From: Haematococcus lacustris
Lineage: Eukaryota > Chlorophyta > Chlorophyceae > Chlamydomonadales > Haematococcaceae
Reading direction: 5' to 3'
Assembly (NCBI GenBank): GCA_030144725.1
Contig: JASKMD010000005.1
Coordinates: forward strand, 4,005,404-4,069,403
DNA length: 64,000 bases
Shown here: piece by piece, positions 8,528 to 60,192 of the stretch
Position numbering within the stretch: the first letter of the stretch is position 1
Layout: every line of letters starts with the position of its first letter
Program-made: the position numbers and the translations under genes
The notes under the pieces: generated by a model
What the model was told of the DNA's origin: nothing
The model's input: the letters and a program-made list of their open reading frames with translations, nothing else
Database searches by the model: none

Positions 8528-10170
8528 ATCTAACCTCACATCATTACATTATAACATCCAACCTACACTTGTGTTCTCTGTAAAATGTCACTTGTGTTCT
8601 CTGTAACCGGTCACTTGTGTTGTGTGGCATTCACTGCATGCATGCTAGGGCTTTGTGTTGTGTGGCTCGGCCATTCGAGCGGACCCAGCTTGGCTTCGCT
8701 TCGAGCGCCCGGTCATGGCTTAAAACCATCTTTCAGCGGCTGGCATCGACCAAAAGGTAAGCGGACGGCTCCGATGGGCGGAGAGTGGTCGTAGTTTCGA
8801 TTCTTGTAACTATGGCGGGCTGAAACGACTTCAGTTTTGGAAAAAGGCCCCTGGCATGGCCAAATCTTAGCTGTTTTTCATGTTTTACCTGATTACTACT
8901 AGCACACGCATCAGGTTGCAGGCATAATTATAAAATCGATGGAAGTACTTGATGCGGTTCCCCGGTGCTCATTGCAAGGCATTGGGCACGTGTGGCATGC
9001 ATAAACATCTCATGACAGTGTGTCCATCACCACCACTCGCCATAGACCGAGCTGATGCATGTTAAGGCCAAGTCAGCGCCAAGGTGCGAGTGTGTGGTAT
9101 AGCTAGCTGCTGAAGAAGTTTCAGGCCCAAAGCCTCACGGCGTACCCCCTCAACCCGGCCATGAGACAAGCCTCTAACAAGCAGCATGTAGCACACACTG
9201 TAAACACCCAGGAGGCACCTGGACATCGCCGAGGACATCGCCGCAACAGCACACATACTTTAAGGCGCAAATAAGAGCGATAGAGCGCTCCTAGCGTTGT
9301 GTGCTGGTCGGGGCCCCCGAACATTGGACGGGGTCGCGGGCCAGCCGATCACCATAGGCCTATTCCTCTGAGCCGACGCTAACGTGCGCGGCGCTGCGTC
9401 AAGGCGTGCCAATCTTACATCGTGAAGCGGTGTATAGAGTCAGTTAAGTCCGTCCGAAAAAAAAATTTCCCCTTGCTTGTCTAGCCTGCTGCTTGTCTGC
9501 TTGCTGATTTATGGCCAACCCAACACGCATGTCAGGTCCAGCATATTTGCAACCCGCTGGGGCTGGCTGCACTCTATTCGGGCCATTACTAGCTCATCGC
9601 ACAAATCGGCGGCCTCATCCGTGCAGAAATCAGTTTGAAAGTTATCTCTTGAGCCATGGGGGTGCAGCCAATGGCGGGGGTGACCTGCTATGTGTCCCTG
9701 CCCATGACACAAAAGTACAGACCTCCACAAACATCTTACAGCACATTAGGGGTTCAGTGGCATGCTTGGTGATGTTGCATGAGCTGTGTCAGCTGTCCAG
9801 GATCATCAGCCATCAGCCTACGCATTTCCTCAGTGGAGCACAAGCGCGGGCGCATCTTTCTGGCTGGTATATGAAGCAGTAACATATCGGTTGCTGCAAT
9901 CAGGAGAGCAAGCTGCAGTGCGCCAACTACCTCTTCCCAACACTACACATCTATTGAACTCAAGTATGCGATCAATCCAATGGTCTTGGCATCACAGACA
10001 GATAGCGACGAGTGCATCAGCAGAGCGGAGGAAGTGGTTGAGTCTCAAGCACCATATTGCACTCATGCATCCAAGCTTCAGGGCTGCCTCCTACCTCTTG
10101 TGCCGCATGCCGCAGTGACGTGCATACTATCTAGGGAACAATACACTATGTCTAGCGCACAAAGTCACCT
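8528..10170. other. Intergenic, nothing recognised
   Basis: About 1.6 kb between the hAT element and the last exon of SSNA1. Only short open frames occur (for example 9511-9882 plus), none resembling a known protein, and I find no repeat shared with other parts of the window. Confidence 0.5.
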
Positions 10171-12678
10171 CTATGAGCTGCTCTGCTTCTTTTTCTGGAT
10201 ATTCACAGCCTCTCGTTTCAACACTGTCAGCAATGTCTGCGAGCTTTCCAAAATCTTGAGGTAAGCAGCTTCTGTCTCTTGAATGACTTTGTCGTACTCA
10301 TTCCTGCACACATTTGCCAAGCACATCATGTTAAGTATCATTTGTAAGCCATTGTGGCATGCTCAGGATGTAGGCATGCTCAGGATGCAAGAGACCCAGC
10401 AGAGGAGCCAGAGGACCCTGATGCGCCGCCGGCCATCACCAAGCTGCCGCTGCACCGGCGGGTCCTGTACGCAATCTACGTCAACCGGTGCCTTAAGGAG
10501 TGGCAGGACCCCAACCCCCCAGCACCCTTACCCAAAGGCGAAGGCAAGGGCAGGGGCAAGGGCAAGGGCAAGGGTCCTCGGGTGCCATTCTGCCCCCCAC
10601 CCTTCATCCTCACCCCCATGGCCGGGTCAGCTACACACTTCATCATGATAGATACCAGGGTCTTGCATGGGGTATGCATGGCGGAGCATGGGGTATGCAT
10701 GGCGGAGCATGCTGCCTACAGTCACTGGGACAGTGTGTTCAAGGTAGGCAAGCTCGCCGACCGAGGGTTTGTGTTTAATAGGCGAATCCTGACTGATGGG
10801 GTCAGTGTGTGTGTGCAAGACACACGCTCACTGGACTACAACCCCCCTGGCCCCTCTGGCAGCAGCCCAGCAGCAGCAGGCCCCTCTGGCAGCAGCAACA
10901 AGCGCCAACCAGCTGACATCGGCAGCGGCCTGGCTGACGAGCGGGCGTTCCAGTTTGACCCAGCCACTCAGATGGGCATAGGGCTGGACCCTGGGGCCAT
11001 CCAGGCAGTCAGTGCAGCTTCAGGGGTGTGGGATGAGGATGGGTGCCTGGACAGCTTCATCCGGAGCAAGCTGACCAGGAGCCAGGTGCAGCATGACAGC
11101 GGCCTGATCCAGGCTCGCCAGAACACTCAGAGGTGGATTGAGAACGTCAAGCTCGAGCTGCAGCACCTGGCAGCAGCCACCCCAGCAGGCACCTCCCTGG
11201 TGGCCATCCAGCGGCACCCTGGCCACTTGGGATGCAGTGTGGGAGGAGTACCGGCATCCCAAGCGGGCTGAGCAGAAGATGAGGCTGCATGGTGCGCAGG
11301 AGAAGGTCCTGGAGCGCTACTTGAAGGAGGTGGGAGTGCCAAGGGTAGGTGGGGAGAGGCAAGGCCAGATGATGATGACTGCCTCACATGTGACCTGCTA
11401 GGTACCCATGTCTCCAACCCATATAAGGATGTCATGCGCGGTGTGTGCCTTGTGTGCCGTTCAGTTAAAGGAGGAGGCAGCCATTGAGTCACAGAAGTGG
11501 TGGGGGACCCACAAGCAGTTGGTTGTGTTCTTTGGCAATGCAGGCATTGGCACCCGGGGTGGGTGGGGGGCCAAGGCTGTGCTGCAGGCCTGCCGCAAGG
11601 TGGTGGAGAGGGCCAACAGCGGCAAGCCAACCGACAGGGTGCCCGGCAAGGTGGTGACAGTGGATGAGTTCCGCACCAGCTCAGCTATGAACAGCCCCCA
11701 GCCCTGTGAGGCGGAGCTGGACCGCAGCAAGCCCACCAGGCTTACAGGCTGGAAGCCCCAGCCAGGTCAGGTGCAGAACCGCTTGTCGCGGTCAGCCTGG
11801 AGCAAGCGGTTTGAGGCGGAAGTGCGGGGGCTCATGTGGTGCCCACAGCTGCACCAGGCTACCCCTGGGGACCTTGGCAAATGGGTGAACAGGGACTGCA
11901 ACGCAGCCCTCAACCTCCAGAGGGCAGGGGAGAGCAAGTGGCGCCCATTGGAGCTGTGCAGGTGGCCACAACGAGCAAGGCTCCCTGCCCAAGGCAGGGA
12001 ATACCCAGCATTGGGCTACAAGGTGTTGCGAGACCGAGCCCCCAAGGCCCTAGCCCAGCAGCCTGTAGCACAGTAGCATATGTGCACCGCGCAATGCTGA
12101 GGCTGTTGCTTACATCAGAGCATGTGTTTCATGCCAACATTGGTTGCCTGACTCTCGCAAGGGGGGAGGGGTAGGAAATTAGGTATTGGTGCCGGATGCT
12201 TGCTGCATACAAACAGTTTGGATAACAGATAACACAGCCCCTGCCCTGTAGTAATAGTAGGGGAACAACTGTGCTGAGGATGCAGGGTGGCTGAGGATGC
12301 AGGGGTGCTGAGGATGCATGTGGACTGGCACCTTGTTTCATTCTTGCGAGCGATGGACTCGTTGACTTGAGCCAACCGCTTGGTGAGTATTTGTAGCTGA
12401 AAGCAAGGACACAAACATGCATGTCATGACTATGAGATGTTGTGTAGCTAGTGTACTGGGATCACCCACGTCCTGCTGAATCTTGTTCTTTTCCTGCTCG
12501 TCATCTTTGATTTGCTTAATAATCTCTTCCCGCTTCTCACGTAAGTCATCAATGCCTGCAAACATCAACATCTTGCTATGAGAGGTTGTACCGTGCCCAC
12601 AGGTGGAGGTCGACATTTCTGCTTACATTTGACGAGCTCGTTATTTTGACTCTGCAGCGCAGCGCCCTGTGCAGCCAT
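10171..12678 (-). CDS. SSNA1: SSNA1 / DIP13 microtubule-associated coiled-coil protein
   Basis: Four exons: 12627-12678, 12470-12555, 12332-12396 and 10171-10303. Phases join exactly and encode 111 residues, the length I recall for algal DIP13. The start ATG is at 12676-12678 ([18 protein letters not shown]). Then follow [10 protein letters not shown] and [13 protein letters not shown], and the last exon gives [20 protein letters not shown] and a lysine/serine tail. This matches SSNA1/NA14 throughout; the family forms a single long parallel coiled coil that self-assembles into fibrils and binds microtubules at basal bodies, centrosomes and axonemes. The first two introns are under 80 bp but the third is 2028 bp and holds a Fanzor sequence on the opposite strand. 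All splice sites look intact. Confidence 0.93.
10354..12076 (+). pseudogene. Fanzor (eukaryotic TnpB-like RNA-guided nuclease), 5'-truncated copy
   Basis: Open frame 10354-11271, a frame change near 11205-11215, then a segment to 11344, a 120-bp intron (11345-11464) and a final exon 11465-12076. Family landmarks in order: the pre-Ruv[17 protein letters not shown], RuvC-I GIGLDPG (Asp codon 10987-10989), the central [10 protein letters not shown] helix region, RuvC-II-like LVVFFGNAG with the alternative Glu in VDEFRTS (11666-11668), and Ruv[16 protein letters not shown] (Asp codon 11894-11896). Fanzors are omega-RNA-guided DNA endonucleases carried by eukaryotic transposons. The N-terminal wedge/REC part is absent because SSNA1 exon 4 lies only about 50 bp upstream, so this copy is truncated and, unless the frame change is a sequencing error or an unseen intron, inactive. 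It lies antisense in SSNA1 intron 3. Confidence 0.78.
12077..12175 (+). ncRNA. Candidate Fanzor omega-RNA / element 3' end
   Basis: About 33 bp after the Fanzor stop comes a run GCTTACA...GCATG...TCATGCCAAC. It is shared, at a similar distance, with the 59.5-kb Fanzor copy and with a solo tail at 22.07 kb. In TnpB and Fanzor elements the guide RNA scaffold overlaps the 3' end of the gene and the transposon end, so this is the expected position. No fold was computed; the call rests on position and conservation. Confidence 0.35.
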
Positions 12679-14241
12679 AGCTCGCGTCGCAGTGAGGTCT
12701 GCAAATGTCCAGCGAGCTAACCGATAATGCTGCCCGCTGTACGCAGCTGTGTCGTATGGACTGAAGTAAGGTTAGGGAAAACTGGACTGTGTTCACCAAG
12801 CTTGACCATGCAAAGCTTGCACAGACAACCGGAAAATTTAGCAGGCAGGCAGCTCAGCGGCCCCCATTAGTATAATCACGCTTCTAACAGACATCACCTG
12901 CCATTTGCACCAGTGTGATTAGGACACGGTGTTATCACGACACGGTGATTCCCTCGGCCTTGAACCTGAGAATGTTTTCACGTGCACATAGCCAAGATCA
13001 GTGTAGCATGATGGCAGTCAGGCCGAGGACAGCCCGACCTGTGAAAGCAGAGTTCTACACTTTAGTGCAGCTGCTAGGTGGCAGCCACAGTATGAGCCTG
13101 ACGGTTCCAGGGGCAGCAGTTGGGGAGCATGATGATACCAATGAGGAGGGCTGCTCAACAGCTTCATGGCTGGCAATGATGGCCGCCTGCATCCTGCTCT
13201 CAACAATTAGCAAGGGCAGCTCCTGGTAGCGTCGACCATGGCATAAACCTGGTGAGGAACCTACCATGCGACAGTGCCAATGGCTGATATGACAGCCAAG
13301 CACATGTGGCAGCCACTGGAGTCAGCCTGGGCTCCAGGGCTAGTCTATAGCTTGCACTGGATGCCACCCAGGACTAGCCCGACCAAGAGTGCACAGCTGC
13401 GCCACGGGGGCAGGCCCTTCCCTCTCCCTCCTGGTTTCCAGCCAGCTTGGTCACACACCCCAACCACGCGCCACCAGTATCCTTGTCTAAAAACAAGCTG
13501 TCAGCCAACAAAACAGTTGTTGCGCCCTTGCCATGTTGTGTAGCTACTCCACCACTGCCCAACACCTCCATGAGCAGCCTGAGACCACCGCAGATGGGAG
13601 GCGGCATCAGTTGGACAAGTCAGAGGATGGGTGCATGGTGTGGGGCTGCTTGGGGGTGATGACTACAAGGTAGCCATGATGCTGAGAGCCGCCATTTCCA
13701 TTAGGCTACCAGCTGACTTGCAGCCGGTTCTACAACAGCCCTGAGAAAGAGCAGGCGCCACTGCCTCATCACATGCCGTACCACCTACTGCTGCACCGCC
13801 AATGCTGCTTTACCTGCCCCCACACACTCACTGCGAACCACCGCAAGTTCCGAGTGTTGACCACCTCTACCCCTCATCGCAGGCCGCTGCCACAGCCGGG
13901 CCGCCAACGGACCCTTTTGCATTAAGATCACAACATGATGACCATAGTGTTTATTGCTGCCGCGCCCACCTCAGTGAGCCAATAGCCCATAGAGCCCCGA
14001 AGGGTGTGAGTGCTCACCCAGGCGTGGGTAACAAGCACCATGTTGCATGCTGTTCACGCAGACAAAGGCAACCTGTGGAGTGGGCAGTGGCTGGCGCAGC
14101 AATGGTCATAGCCCCGGGTGGGAAGGCCAGCAGGGGTAGCAGGTGGTGTGTTCTTGGAAGCATCAGAGGACTGAGGCTGGCTGTACATCTTGTGGCATTG
14201 AGCAGCACTAGTGTACTCTATGGTGTACTCTATGGTGTACT
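12679..14241. other. SSNA1 upstream region, no recognised gene
   Basis: It contains the SSNA1 promoter side and scattered frames (12915-13229 plus, 104 codons) that I cannot assign. About 90 bp around 13345-13440 (translating SLHWMPPR...KSAQLRHG) recurs inverted at about 17500-17590, which marks an old dispersed repeat. Confidence 0.45.
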
Positions 14242-14252: not shown

Positions 14253-14756
14253 CAGCAGGCTCCTGCTGCTGGGTCTCAGGTGCTCGGTCTCACAGCCACT
14301 TGAGGCCTGACCTGGTTACCCCCTGCCCTTGTATGGCGGCTTCAGCTGCTCTGGCCAGGTCAAGCCAGGTCAAGTGGGCACCACTTGCTCTCCCCAATGC
14401 GCTGCAGGTTTAATGCTGTATTGTAGTCTCTGTCTACCCACCTGGCTGGCTGTTGTGTTGGGGGAGTGGGTATGGCGACCTTGCCCTTCACGCTGCCCTG
14501 ATGGGCTGGGTGGGACCAGCTCCCTGCTCAGCCTTGGTGCGCTTGGCTGGTGGTGGAGCACTGGGCCTGGTTCTGGGGCTGCTGCCTGTCTGCGTGGTGG
14601 CTGTGGGAGCTTGCGTGGGGACACCTAATGAGGCCCCCTGAAATGGCTGGTTACTCTGCTGGGTCCATGAAGACTACGCCGGCTGCTGCCAGGTGCTGCA
14701 GTTGGGGCTGCGCCAGTGCCTTGTTCAGCTCCCTTGTCCCTCGCTAGGGCCTCCAT
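14242..14756 (-). pseudogene. Decayed Fanzor 3' part
   Basis: On the minus strand, WVDRDYNTALNLQRIGESKW matches the RuvC-III region of the other copies, with the catalytic Asp at 14426-14428. Downstream, a degenerate stretch ends at a TAG (14242-14244), aligning with the Fanzor C-terminus. Several stops interrupt the frame. At its 5' side ATGGAGGCCCTAGCGAGGGA (minus, from 14756) matches a segment that lies 3' of the 59.5-kb copy and in the 22.2-kb tail. Old copies therefore seem to be joined head to tail or rearranged. Confidence 0.75.
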
Positions 14757-15373
14757 TTGAGCCGGATCAGTAGTCTCCACTAGCAGTCACTAACTAGACC
14801 CGACCTGCCTTGTTCAGCCCACTGTCATGCCGCAACTGGCTCTTGCCTAGCTTCCACCAGGGCAGGTCCCCTGCTACCAGCAGGCCCACCTTTTTCAACA
14901 AACCTGGCGTCACACACCGGTGTGGCACAGCTAAGTGACAACCCGGACAGGGTAACTTGGCTGCGCGCATGTTAGGGCTCAGAGTTCAGTGTTACATGGC
15001 CCCATGCCTTCAAGCACCTACATTTAGGCAGCCAACCCCTAGCAGGCTATCAGTCTTCTCGAGCAAGGCTGGCGTCAACACGCAACAGTTCCATTGCAGT
15101 CCAAGACAAAATCAGTGGCACACACAAACCTTGCAGCCTAACAAACATCGCTGCAGGCTACAAACTCTGTTTTTTCATTGCACACAGACCCCTCCTGTTC
15201 TTGCACACAGCCCCTCCTGTTATGGACCCACACCCTCCCGGTCGACCAACAGCATTTTCCAAGCAAGGCTCCATGCATGACTGCCATAATGAGGTCATGA
15301 TGTGCCCTCGTGATCCTTTCATGCTTCCTTATAGGGACACAAGATGTCCTTACGGCTCGTGGACAAGGTGCAC
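14757..15373. other. No recognised gene
   Basis: Open frames exist on both strands (for example 15138-15464 minus), but without a convincing link to the neighbouring gene model, which ends at 15374. Confidence 0.45.
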
Positions 15374-20900: not shown

Positions 20901-23900
20901 CTGCCCAGCAAACGGGCCCCATCACACCGCACAGGCATCACACCCCACAGCACCCTTTCCACAAGGCTGCGAAGGCCTGGTCACACCGATCGTCACCCTG
21001 ACCTCACCTTGGGCTACCTTGACCTGCCTCGCCCTACCCACCCTGCCTCGGCCTCCCCGCCCTGCAGGACTCCCTGGTGACCCGCATGGAGGACCTGCCG
21101 CTGCTGCAAGGGGTCAGCTTCGACACCCATGGCGGGCTGACACCAGCTGCACAGGCAAGCAAGCTGTACTAGGTCTGTTAGTGCAGGGAGGGTCCCACGC
21201 TTTGTCCTGTGTTCCATCAGGGACCAGCGCTCTGAGGGGCCAACGCTCAGGGCCAGTAGGAGGCGTGCTCCTGCACACCACTGGTGCTGTCATGGAAAAA
21301 GACAGCAAAACAGAGAAGACTACGCCCTCATCTCCGGGAAGGAGAGGAGGGAGGAGAGTAGCCTCGGGACATGCCCTTGCTACCCTCCCACCAGTGTAGG
21401 GGGTTCAAGGGAACAACAGCATTGGCAGCAGCAGCAGCGGCAGCAGGCTGCTGTCATGTACAGCACTCCCATGGCCATGGCCACATTCCATTTGGGTCAT
21501 GAAGTCTGACGGCCAGACATGCCAGGGGCTGCCAGATGTGCATGTCTGGGCAGCAGCTAGTGTGGCGGATGCAGGCAGGTGTGAGGGGTCAGCTGCATGG
21601 GTGCAGCGCAGCAACGCGCTGCCAGCAGCTTGCCGGCCATTGCCTAGCCCTGTTTTAACACTGGTGCCTGCTGCTCTCAGGTCTACACCCAGTGGCTGCT
21701 GCAGCAGCACATCAACGCGCCCTTCACACTCCCCCGCACAGACAACAGCAGCAGCGGCGGCAGCAGCACGACAGTGCCCCGGCCGCTGTTACGCATGCCA
21801 GGCAGCCCAGAGGTATCAAGCAGCATGAACCCGGTGGCCGCTGGTCTCACCTGGCAGCTGCCCACGCCCATCCCTGCGCTGTGTGAGTGTGGCAGTGCCA
21901 GGCCGCCTCAACCGACCCTGCAACCAGCAGTGTGTCACACTCCCTCACTCGCTAGGTTACTACTAGCCAGCTGCTAGGGAACGGCAGCCAGCTGTCAGGG
22001 TACAGCACACAGCCACCCTGACGGCCAGTGCCTGTACCCATCACGGCACCCCAGGCTGCCATGGCATGGCAGCTTACAATTAGCGCATGTTTGTCATGCC
22101 AACTCTACACTATAGCCCTCGCGGTCAGGCAATAATGTAGGTGGTAGGCACTCATGCACCATGTCCATGTGCGTTGGGTTTACTCCACACAGCCCATCAA
22201 CACCAATTGAGTCCCGCTATTGATTCCTAGTGGTTCCTAGTGGTCCGACTCGTTTGGAGGCCCTAGTGAGGGATGAGGGGGCTGCCATGGCACCTTGTGA
22301 GGAGCGCTTGGTGGGTAAGCTAGGATGCTTAGCTGCCTGGCCACACGCCGGGGCAGTCCGCTTGTGTTCAAGATCCACCCTGGCCACTGCTGTTTCGCCA
22401 CAGCTGCTGCACCACACTCCTCAGGCCTGGCTGTGCCTCAGCCTGTGCTGGTGGCTGTGCCTGCGCCTGCCCCTGAGTTCAGCCACGTATGGGGACCCTG
22501 CTGCGGCTGCCGGCCTGCTGGACACCAACGGCTTGGGCGTGTCCGTGCTGGCCAGCAATGCAACCCTGGAGGCAGCCTCGTGAGTGGCTGAGGGGGAGAG
22601 GGTGCCCTGGGGCAGCTGCAGGGTCAGCACCGTCAGCAGTACGTGGCATTTGCCTGTCACAGTTGCTGCAACACACACACACACACGCACTCAATGTGGC
22701 AGACACAGTGTCGATGAGTCAGCTATGACCAGGCAGGGGCCAGGCAGGTCCAGACTGGGCTACAGTCCACTCAGGGCCAACCTGGGCTGTTCTATAGTTC
22801 AGCTGCACGTCGTATCAAAGCACATGGCCTCAGTGTCATGACCCTTGCTTGCAGCGATTGCCTCTGCAGCCGGTCTGCTGCCCTTCTGTTGATGGTGGGA
22901 GCAGGCCGCGCCCCTCTTCTTCTGCAGCCGCTCTGCTGCCCTTCTGCCTTGATGCCCTCCTGCCTTGCTGCCCTCCTGACTTCCTGTTGCGCCTGAGGAA
23001 CGCCCTTGATAGTAAGGAGCTCCACTTTGGCACGTGGGCCAATCTGCTTCACCTACTTTCACCCACAGCACGGTGGCCAGCGCTGTAGGGAAGCCATGAT
23101 GCCCTGCTGTGTGGCAGCTTACATACTTTACACAAGCCCTCCCACAAGACCTCATACGCCAACAGACCTGTTGACAGCTGGATGACGCGCCCATGACTGC
23201 TAGATAGGTCCTCGACAAACACAGCGGCACCACTCATCCTCACCCTGTACGTGGACTCCAGACGACTGCAGACCTCTGCAGAGCGTGGTCAGTTCGAGAA
23301 AGTGGACTGTAGTGTCTGTAGAGTGTGGTCTCTCTGCTCCAGAGCCGCCTTGGTGGAAACCAGTGTCCCTTGCATGCTGGCTCACAGGGCGTACCTGAAG
23401 CAGCCTGCCTCATACGAGTTCACTGTCAGGAGTGCGCTGTTTGACCAGGTAGGCAGTTTGTGCCTGTGCCTATGCGTGCCTGTATTTGTGGACGTGTGTG
23501 GATAGGAAGAGGGAGGGCAACCTGTGCAATTTTAGTAGGCAGTCGGCTGGCAGCTGTTTGGGTCCTTGCCTGCCACATGTCTCCCACCCCACTCCCCATC
23601 TGCCTGCCCGGGCGGTGCTTGTATTTCCTCCCCCTTCCTGTTACTTCCATGCCTGGTGTATCCACTGCAGCTATATTGTGCTCCAGGCTGGCCTATGTGG
23701 TCATGCCCAGCATCACACTTCCTGTCACTTCCATGCCCGGTGTACCCATTGTGCCCGATGCGGTGGTGTCTGTGCAGTACGAGGTGGCCTTCCCCTTGAG
23801 GCAAGCCGCCGACTGCTTGGCAGGCCTGCTGGCCGTGGTGTACGGCAACGACACGGACAGCCTGCGTAACGAGACACGCGCCAGGGACAAGGGCTTCCGC

Positions 23901-57249: not shown

Positions 57250-57680
57250 CCACGTAAAAAGCAGAATGATAGGGGTCCTCCTCGCTGTGTCGTGTGTATA
57301 TGGAGCTATGTGCACATGGCTGTGTCGTGTGTATATGGAGCTATGTGCACATGGCATGGGCGCAGGCTGGCTGTACTTTTGCCTGACCCTGACCTGTGAC
57401 AGGTCGATAGCCTAGATGGGCATGACATGCATGCACATGATGGCAGCTTGACGGGGGCAGACTACTGTGCTGAGGCTGCAGCAGGTGGGCCTGGTTTGGG
57501 CGGTCCTCTCAGCCACTTGCAGCCCAGGTCCTGACAGCGCAGGCCACGAGCATTGCTCCAGCCACCGGCTTTCCACGATGCATCGCATGTCCAATGTTGC
57601 ATGTTAGTCCTTGTCTCCCCCCAAGTCTGGCTGCTGGCCCTTGCCTTCGGTTCACTGGCTAGGCTCAGCTGCCTGCTCAA
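57250..57680 (-). pseudogene. Decayed Fanzor C-terminal copy
   Basis: On minus, DLGCKWLRGPPKPGPPAAAS aligns with the Fanzor tail (GLGYKRLRDKPPKA...). DNA-level similarity to the 59.3-kb copy runs through the RuvC-III region, but the RDCN motif itself has been lost through indels. The unit is repeated at 58003-58500, sharing GGGTCCTCCTCGCT, GTATGGAGCTATGTGC and GGCTGGCTGTACTTTTGCC-type text. Confidence 0.55.
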
Positions 57681-57782
57681 CCTTTGTGCGCTGAGCGCGC
57701 TTGGCTGGTGGTGGTGGTGGTGGTGCTACACCATGCAAGCACAGGACCCGGCTGCGGCAATCAAGTCTCCCGGTAACATTTA

Positions 57783-58002: not shown

Positions 58003-58500
58003 AAGGGCAGAATGACAGGGGTCCTCCTCGCTAATGGCTGTGTCGTGTGTGTATGGAGCTATGTGCCTATGCACATGGCATGGGCGCAGGCTGTCTGAAC
58101 TTCTGCACAGGCACTTCTTTGGCTCAGTCACATTATCTGCCATGTTGGCTGCATCATGCTTGCGCTGAAATCCATGTACGACGAGCCGGCTGGCTGTACT
58201 TTTGCCTGACCCTGACCCACAGGACCCTGACCTGTGATGGCAGCTTGACGTGGGCTGTGCTGCAGGTTGCAGCATGTGGGCTTGAGGTGGGCGGTTTCGC
58301 AGCCAGCCCAGGTCCCGGCAGCGCAGGCCACGAGCATTGCTCCAGCCACCTGCTCTCCACGATGCATTGCATGTATGAATGATGGTGGCCTACACCGCTC
58401 AAGCCGTCAGCCGTTAGGCTGCTTGGCCAATGTCCAATGCATGTCCAATGTTGCATGGCAGTCTGTCTACCCCCAAGTCTGGCTGCTGGCCCTTGCCTTT
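58003..58500 (-). pseudogene. Second decayed Fanzor C-terminal copy
   Basis: Colinear with 57250-57680 and likewise without an intact RuvC-III motif. It retains AGGTCCCGGCAGCGCAGG-type sequence and CTGGAGCAATGCTCGTGG on minus. The two copies look like a tandem duplication of one already damaged element. Confidence 0.5.
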
Positions 58501-58669
58501 GGTTGGCTGGGTAGGCTCAGCTGCCTGCCCAACCTTTGTGCGCTGGGTGCGCTTGGCTGGTGGTGGTGGTGGCTGCCTGGCTCAACACCTACATAAAACA
58601 TGCAACCACAGGACCCGGGCTGCGGTCACCCGGGCTGCAAGCACAGGACCCCGGCTGCGGACCTCAGTG

Positions 58670-58850: not shown

Positions 58851-58942
58851 ATGCAGGACAGCTCACACACTGCACACAAGGCTCCCTGCGGGACACCCTG
58901 CCCCTGCCCTGCCGCATGCTGACATCCCTCCATGAATCTCCC

Positions 58943-60192
58943 ATGAAATCCAAATTGCTTGAAAAGGCCACCGCCCGTCGCACTGCGCATCGCGTGATGG
59001 CTAAGAAGAAGCCGAAGGGTAGCGACAAGAAACAGAAAGGTTCGTGTCCCTAGCCGACTGTGAGCTACGTGAACTACGTGCTGTGAGATAACCCGTCGCT
59101 CCTGTTGGTTCCATCGCAGCGTCTCGTTCCCGTCAAGGCAAGCAACGACAGGAGCGTCGGGATAGTTGGACCACGCGTAGACGTCAGGTGGCGCCCCCGC
59201 CTTTTGTGTCCCCGCACTGTTTGTGTTGAACCCGCCTTTGTCTTGGCCTGTCAAAAGCCGGCAGCTGAGCCCACTAAGGGCAAAGGCAAAGGCAAGGCTG
59301 CCAAAGCCAAGCCAGCACCACAGCCAGGCATGTGGCTGGACAGGGACTGCAATGCAGCGCTCAACATGCAGCGCATTGGGGAGAGCAGGTGGCGGCCGCT
59401 GGAGCTGTGCTACTGGCCAGACCAGGGAGCTCTGCCAGCCAAGGGCAAGGAATACCCTGGCCTGGGCTACAAGCGGCTGCGAGACAAGCCTCCTAAGGCC
59501 CAGCAGCAGCAGCAGCAACCTGCTGTGGCACAGTAATGTGTGCCCCCTATGTTGAGTTGTCATCAGCTTACAATTAGTGCATGCAGGTCATGCCAACTCT
59601 ACATCATAGCCCTCGGGTCAGGCAATAGTGTAGGTGGTAGGAGGGCTCACGTGCCATGTGCACTGGGTTTACTCCACACAGCCCAATAACACTGTGCTCA
59701 AATGGAGGCCCTAGTGAGGGACAAAGGGGCTGCCATGCGCGCTCGCCCACGCAATCAATTCAGAATGTCACATGCGCGCTACGCAGTCCATAGACCCCCA
59801 TAGAGTCCAAGCTCCCAGTCCATTGATCGAGGGTTGTTGGGCAGTCAGGCTTCGAGCTCGCACTGCAACACCAGTGCATGGATGTCCCTGACTCACTGCC
59901 TAAGGCAACGGTGGGAAGAAGCGGGTGTTCACGAGTGTCTTTCAATAAGAGGGCGGCCACACAGCCTAGCGATGCACCATCCACCTCCTTACAGGCATGT
60001 CACAAGCCAACAACACCAGTCATTCGCCAGCCTGTTGATGAGCAGCAGTACGCTACCCTCGCTTGGCCAGCACCTTATACTTTCTGTCACTGCTGGTGGC
60101 AACATCATCCAGACCTCAAGCCATGGACTTCCAGGCTGCTCAGCCAGGGTCGTTGCCCCCTCAGCCGCTGCCCCACAGCACCCTCTCCGTGA
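58943..60192 (+). CDS. Small basic protein gene with a Fanzor in its second intron
   Basis: Exon 1 (58943-59039) encodes MKSKLLEKATARRTAHRV and a Lys-rich MAKKKPKGSDKKQK. Exon 2 (59120-59187) adds RQGKQRQERRDSWTTRRRQ. A third exon from 59845 continues in phase (GFELALQHQCMDVPDSLPKA) to at most the stop at 60190-60192. Phases 1 and 0 fit at both junctions. The first 55 residues are strongly basic, suggesting nucleic-acid binding or a nuclear/nucleolar signal, but I do not recognise a family. Intron 2 (59188-59844) contains the Fanzor 3' end and its tail in the same direction. The stop lies only 43 bp from the convergent WNK stop. Further introns in exon 3 are possible. Confidence 0.45.
59250..59536 (+). 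pseudogene. Fanzor C-terminal fragment (RuvC-III)
   Basis: Open to a TAA at 59536. After a KGKGKGKAAKAKPAPQP linker comes [20 protein letters not shown] (catalytic Asp codon 59345-59347), then RPLELCYW, LPAKGKEYPGLGYKRLRDK and a Gln-rich PAVAQ end. It aligns over its full length with the C-terminus of the 11.9-kb copy ([20 protein letters not shown]). RuvC-I and RuvC-II are missing upstream, so this is a 5'-truncated copy. It lies in intron 2 of the small basic protein gene, in the sense direction. Confidence 0.8.
59537..59740 (+). ncRNA. Candidate Fanzor omega-RNA / element 3' end
   Basis: The region from the Fanzor stop to about 59740 is shared with the solo tail at 22067-22296, and its first part with 12110-12150. 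Conservation between otherwise decayed non-coding copies implies either recent common origin or a functional RNA/end sequence. By analogy with TnpB and characterised Fanzors the guide scaffold would end at the right element boundary, here probably near 59740. No folding was done. Confidence 0.4.

Follow-up and report, generated by a model that had tools for sequence, protein, structure and literature searches.

SSNA1 and the element in its last intron

The window, a stretch of 64,000 bp from Haematococcus lacustris (C312:4005404-4069403 of assembly G000), carries the basal-body gene SSNA1 on its minus strand. Reconstruction of the exons in the window gave four exons and a product of 111 aa (Table 1), with introns of 71, 73, and 2028 bp, all of which have GT..AG borders. 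In a previous sequence-only reading, intron 3 was placed at 12331-10304 with a length of 2028 bp, and introns 1 and 2 were described as shorter than 80 bp; the coordinates were exact and the lengths agreed. The product was identical to P0121, an H. lacustris protein from another source, and together with the intact intron borders this bore out the claim that SSNA1 was undamaged by the insertion. A slightly mis-spliced version of the product matched one solved chain, SSNA1 9dsm_A (E 9.5e-07). Of 775 SSNA1 relatives, 120 were listed, and none of these carried a QJQ45 name.

Table 1. Positions in the window of SSNA1 and of the Fanzor-bearing element in its last intron.
Feature	Position	Strand	Remark
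SSNA1 exon 1	12627..12678	-	
SSNA1 exon 2	12470..12555	-	
SSNA1 exon 3	12332..12396	-	
SSNA1 intron 3	10304..12331	-	2028 bp; some 133 bp once the element and a single duplication copy are removed
SSNA1 exon 4, with stop	10171..10303	-	
5'-truncated, decayed Fanzor-bearing mobile element	10390..12276	+	1887 bp; left edge from the homology limit (within 2 bp) and the end of the left duplication, right edge from the common 3' terminus
Left target-site duplication copy	10382..10389		AGGATGCA, after ATGCTC
Right target-site duplication copy	12277..12284		AGGATGCA
Fanzor remnant, open stretch	10390..11217	+	contains RuvC-I DPG; up to the 11-nt deletion
Fanzor remnant, frameshift to splice donor	11216..11344	+	
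Fanzor-gene intron	11345..11464	+	phase 0, GT..AG; in aligned copies too
Fanzor remnant, C-terminal part with stop	11465..12076	+	shifted glutamate (VDEFRTS), RuvC-III (NRDCNAALN); no zinc ribbon
3' non-coding end common to copies	12077..12276	+	candidate cis end and guide-RNA scaffold
17-bp tandem repeats of host intron, left side	10356..10389		two units; last overlaps the left duplication
17-bp tandem repeats, right side	12273..12318		2.7 units; first overlaps the last four bases of the element

The insert is on the plus strand and thus antisense to SSNA1 in its last intron, as had been proposed, and DPG, VDEFRTS, and NRDCNAALN can be read in it as expected of a Fanzor-type gene. The span given for the Fanzor element, which was that of the whole intron, stood only in part: the element does lie inside intron 3, but its mobile part covers 10390-12276 only. 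The 17-bp repeats at both edges were considered as terminal repeats belonging to the element and rejected, because they are absent from the other copies, which stop at the position corresponding to 12276. In the public annotation, the locus corresponds to gene model QJQ45_012530 (P0001), which crosses the frameshift by a different splice.

Fanzor identity and loss of the zinc ribbon

The motif DPG at RuvC-I was taken from the Fanzor definition in PMC10711439. The window has GLDPG at this place; among the 120 listed relatives, 95 motif matches were obtained, with GIDPG in 51 and GLDPG in 38. The shifted glutamate, which stands six residues before the zinc ribbon position and is followed by [TS][TS], is found in VDEFRTS in the window, and its motif place was recognized in 111 of the 120 listed relatives with a pattern allowing E, D, or Q. 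The C-terminal RDxNAAxN appears as NRDCNAALN in the window, and CNAAL was present in 111 of the 120. A shifted glutamate and C-terminal RD letters are shared with the characterized Fanzors, as described in the accessible parts of PMC10432273 and PMC11423790; unlike those proteins, the H. lacustris family is known from sequence alone, and its window copy is broken.

Of 8000 candidates scored in a homology search, 699 proteins reached E<=1e-3, and the 120 listed of these 699 were all from H. lacustris. A chance resemblance to Fanzor was ruled out by the 699 homologous proteins and their common motifs. A C4 zinc ribbon was searched for as CxxC between the glutamate and RDCNAAL, and it was found in none of the 99 listed relatives with both motifs. 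Judged from these proteins, the listed H. lacustris family as a whole has lost the zinc ribbon. Many, not all, Fanzor members carry this ribbon (PMC10711439), and Bao and Jurka put it into their Fanzor motif (accessible text of PMC3627910).

PF07282, the TnpB/Cas12f TNB profile, scored 13.9 bits against window 11465-12073 at a cut-off of 26.3, and a Pfam scan of the public model P0001 gave no match. The cut-off was passed by two of eight scanned proteins, P0017 (26.5 bits) and P0058 (27.6 bits), both of which had been selected for the scan owing to a listed precomputed hit. When matches at E up to 1 were counted, PF07282 was found in 10 of 15 proteins (best 9.7e-05); as evidence on the other side, an NCBIfam transcription-factor-IIB model matched five of the same 15 (best 1.7e-06). 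A family profile matched no solved chain at E up to 1, and the AlphaFold model of the relative P0048, built on a 34-row alignment, had a mean pLDDT of 34 and was unusable. Rfam gave two matches in window 10000-13000 (E 0.21 and 0.41), far under the gathering scores. Among viral contigs, none of 19 pattern matches was confirmed.

Lesions of the window copy and the second SSNA1 locus

The implied presence of a working nuclease gene was not supported, as the 5' end and start codon are missing from the copy, its frame is shifted, and its codons have drifted. Relative to the family protein, it begins within the coding region, so that the start codon is lost. The frame is shifted near 11216 by loss of 11 nt, and a further 9 nt are deleted shortly after the glutamate; both deletions are absent from the duplicate described below. 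All three catalytic letters are still present. The window copy is dead and cannot make its protein. In itself, the locus is a common transposon remnant, not to be taken for a functional nuclease nested in a ciliary gene, and users of the annotation should be cautioned that gene model QJQ45_012530 is such a remnant. The element family is of more interest than this copy.

A second SSNA1 with the same insertion was found in inverted orientation about 3 Mb away, at C312:972000-978000 (L009). As both SSNA1 loci carry the insertion, it predates the duplication or a split of haplotypes; what they have in common is the insertion and not a full Fanzor frame. The second SSNA1 lies within an inverted duplicated block on the same contig, in which window 9508-47469 corresponds to G000:C312:933000-976056 in pieces of 78-97% identity, up to the end of the stretch that was compared. 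The block could be a segmental duplication or two haplotypes joined in one scaffold.

Between the two loci, SSNA1 shows seven synonymous and no non-synonymous codon differences, and the Fanzor part shows 10 synonymous and 17 non-synonymous differences over 368 codons. The deletions also differ, and the sequence corresponding to window 10376-10848 is missing from the duplicate. The counts of 7/0 versus 10/17 therefore indicate that selection holds SSNA1 and not the Fanzor, which on this sequence comparison is a passenger in the SSNA1 intron. Among 21 copies of the family, identity by codon position was 0.918, 0.925, and 0.919, so that codon positions give no sign of protein-level selection in this alignment. 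The exons were more alike than the Fanzor intron (0.921 vs 0.881), which could reflect selection in source copies.

Ends of the family, hairpin, and insertion motif

In a DNA search of the genome, 40 of 5117 first-look candidates were scored, and neither figure is a copy number. The search for further Fanzor copies with their ends aligned, which had been suggested as a check, yielded copies with one common 3' end. Besides the window itself and the SSNA1 duplicate, 38 matches were scored in full; 22 of them end at query 1972-1980 (window 12275-12283) and 16 earlier (1825-1964). The terminus was kept in the window and in 25 of the 27 loci read, a sample in which 19 of the 20 loci of one batch had been picked for an intact right end. 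It mostly reads ..GTGCTG, with unrelated DNA beyond, and the 3' end of the family follows the pattern TAGGGGAAYAAYN(0-1)GTGCTG. Similarity among copies stops at this terminus, whereas it fades gradually toward the 5' side. The 5' starts are ragged: for several copies the beginning lies within, or close to, a 15-bp tandem repeat located upstream of the MKGKKRKG start, and others, including the window copy, start inside the Fanzor gene. Several matches start at query 546-548, where an internal repeat breaks the alignment; these positions are not element ends.

In the window, the two 8-bp copies listed in Table 1 directly adjoin the element edges. As this duplication sits in a 17-bp tandem array on both sides, the 8-bp match may partly be array similarity. 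When foreign flanks were placed at the window locus, 3 of 25 matched equally well at some place within it, and a 10-bp match close to the same edge was given by one. The right flank was compared with upstream DNA in 21 non-redundant copies, a set from which L011 and L012, without the terminus, and L016, L025, L027, L031, and L034, as duplicates, had been removed. Where repeat places were tied (L021 and L022), one of two was counted, and the controls were treated likewise. Nine of the 21 copies had an exact repeat of 8 bp or more, compared with 11% of 420 foreign-flank controls, and the other 12 had none of this length. The corresponding values were 12 of 21 versus 26% at 7 bp and 3 of 21 versus 1% at 10 bp. 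GCT[GC] precedes eight of the nine repeats of at least 8 bp, L035 being the exception, and nine of the 12 of at least 7 bp, compared with 4 of 109 control matches.

Close to the left edge estimated from homology, repeats of at least 8 bp occurred in 5 of 26 copies and in 1.1% of controls. Only four of the nine repeats lie within about 30 bp of that edge (L014, L028, L035, and the window), three of them after GCT[GC]; those of L022, L030, and L032 lie about 80-160 bp outside it, and those of L017 and L036 inside the homologous part. GCTG also forms the last letters of the element itself and matches the insertion motif GCT[G/C].

The 3' end of the window copy contains a 7-bp hairpin, CCCCTGC/GTAGGGG, which ends 13 nt before the terminus. 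A 7-bp hairpin with all seven pairs, 11-13 nt from the terminus, was present in 17 of 21 copies. Folding energies of the 3' ends were only mildly below those of shuffled sequences (mean z -1.55). As a whole, the 3' non-coding end was not better conserved than the exon (0.856 vs 0.921), but its block 12111-12145 was (0.930).

Origin and movement of the insertion

The most probable explanation, to which we give a probability of about 90%, is that a 5'-truncated element of a high-copy H. lacustris family entered an existing small SSNA1 intron before the locus was doubled, and is now a passive remnant. The element would have landed, already truncated, after GCTC and generated an 8-bp target-site duplication. 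The SSNA1 region would then have been duplicated in inverted orientation, or two haplotypes would have split, both with the insertion; both SSNA1 copies would have kept their protein as the Fanzor copies decayed. The element is presumably spliced out in the cell with the SSNA1 intron.

As for the movement of the family, one-ended rolling-circle transposition, assisted in trans by a putative Helitron2-type partner, appears the most likely mode. The closest likeness is to the Fanzor1 elements CRe-1, CRe-2, and CRe-3 of Chlamydomonas reinhardtii, which Bao and Jurka (2013) assigned to Helitron2 (accessible text of PMC3627910); membership of the H. lacustris family is putative, by analogy. Both groups, CRe-1 to -3 according to the same text, have a multi-copy Fanzor gene with introns, and copies are often truncated at the 5' end or internally deleted, with intact 3' ends that carry a hairpin. 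The one-ended pattern of CRe-1 to -3 was found here, with a fixed 3' end and ragged 5' ends, and with duplications in a minority of copies. In CRe-1 to -3, duplications of about 7-19 bp, mostly at truncated copies, follow a fixed tetranucleotide, as in H. lacustris; however, the motif before the left duplication is GCT[G/C] in H. lacustris and TTTT or T-rich in CRe. The H. lacustris family also differs from CRe-1 to -3, as far as that text describes them, in the loss of the zinc ribbon.

The main rival to this mode is that the family was moved in trans by target-primed reverse transcription with a LINE-like machine, which we consider possible though unlikely. Such a process also leaves copies with a constant 3' end, a truncated 5' end, and short, variable duplications, and the fixed 3' ends, the uneven 5' ends, and the 7-10 bp repeats observed here are in line with it. 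However, the Fanzor intron 11345-11464 is retained in the 21 copies of the alignment (pairwise identity 0.881 on average, gaps 0.006), and thus spliced mRNA was not the template. Moreover, the terminus has no poly(A), and it carries a terminal hairpin, a feature of Helitron1 and Helitron2 in the available text of PMC3627910.

For the insert itself, a regulatory role, in which a transcript from the Fanzor strand would regulate SSNA1, might be suggested by its antisense orientation and its presence at both SSNA1 loci. We regard this as highly improbable, since the 5' region of the family is lost in the window copy and the duplicate carries a different internal deletion. The length of intron 3, far beyond that of introns 1 and 2, could likewise suggest that the element created the intron in an introner-like manner. 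This origin has still poorer prospects: the splice sites lie 78 and 47 bp beyond the duplications, in sequence not common to 27 other loci (L010-L036), and the empty intron would measure 133 bp. That an active Fanzor homes in the intron, with a right-flank guide cutting empty SSNA1 alleles, is close to negligible despite the three catalytic letters and a right flank (AGGATGCAGGG..) that would follow GCTC in the empty site like a target behind a 5' motif, as the copy has no start codon, a frameshift, the 9-nt deletion past the glutamate, and 17 non-synonymous differences from a duplicate that itself lacks the equivalent of window 10376-10848.

Any guide action would fit the anatomy of intact copies only. 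In the accessible parts of PMC10432273 and PMC11423790, the first stem loop of the guide RNAs of GtFz1, SpuFz1, and PpFz1 has 7 bp, and the 5' motifs recognized by four tested Fanzors are 3-5 nt long; the counterparts in H. lacustris are the 7-bp terminal hairpin and the 4-nt insertion motif. By analogy with those systems, the 3' end of intact copies may also serve as guide-RNA scaffold, with the right flank acting as the guide. Since the guide target in an empty site would follow GCT[GC], the previously raised idea of action on the empty SSNA1 allele is sound in principle, and such action is conceivable for intact relatives only, not for the window copy.

A broader proposal, which we consider doubtful, is that a Fanzor lineage has reached hundreds, perhaps thousands, of copies after loss of the zinc ribbon with D-E-D kept, and that its insertion motif GCT[G/C], identical to its own last 3' letters, is read as a target-adjacent motif with the right flank as guide. 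If so, intact copies would recognize empty sites and their own right junction, and nuclease targeting would be tied to the choice of insertion site. A Fanzor lineage that has no zinc ribbon and whose many copies share a defined 3' end and an insertion motif offers a natural test series for whether target motifs follow insertion sites.

The family in the genome and in the annotation

A chromosome-level H. lacustris assembly, the most probable source of the QJQ45 gene models, has 30,575 genes and 50.8% transposable elements (accessible text of PMC10400597). In the openly accessible literature on Fanzor and green-alga transposons that was surveyed, no description of the H. lacustris Fanzor family was found. 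In Auxenochlorella, a Fanzor-encoding element is the most abundant repeat and was termed uncharacterized in the available text of PMC12633428; by description, it resembles the H. lacustris family as an abundant Fanzor element of a green alga.

Of the 120 listed relatives, 13 also bear Pfam domains besides PF07282 and PF26935, as would be expected if host gene models swallow intronic copies. Host gene models fused to Fanzor copies were observed, among them P0064 (QJQ45_009574), which bears PF00494, squalene/phytoene synthase. Thus, some of the H. lacustris gene annotation is contaminated by the family.

Decayed Fanzor relics of a sister subfamily were observed elsewhere in the window, at 14257-14892 (minus strand), 57541-57705 (minus), and 58877-59485 (plus), the last of which appears internally deleted. 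A weaker relic at 58261-58557 (minus) matched only at E 0.001-0.005, and its DNA resembles the piece at 57 kb. In L011 and L012, expanded 6-bp repeats of tens of units surround the Gly/Lys-rich stretch of the Fanzor. A piece with no coding part, at window 22070-22289, resembles the 3' terminal region of the 59-kb relic (83% over 135 bp), and such 3' ends may therefore spread alone.
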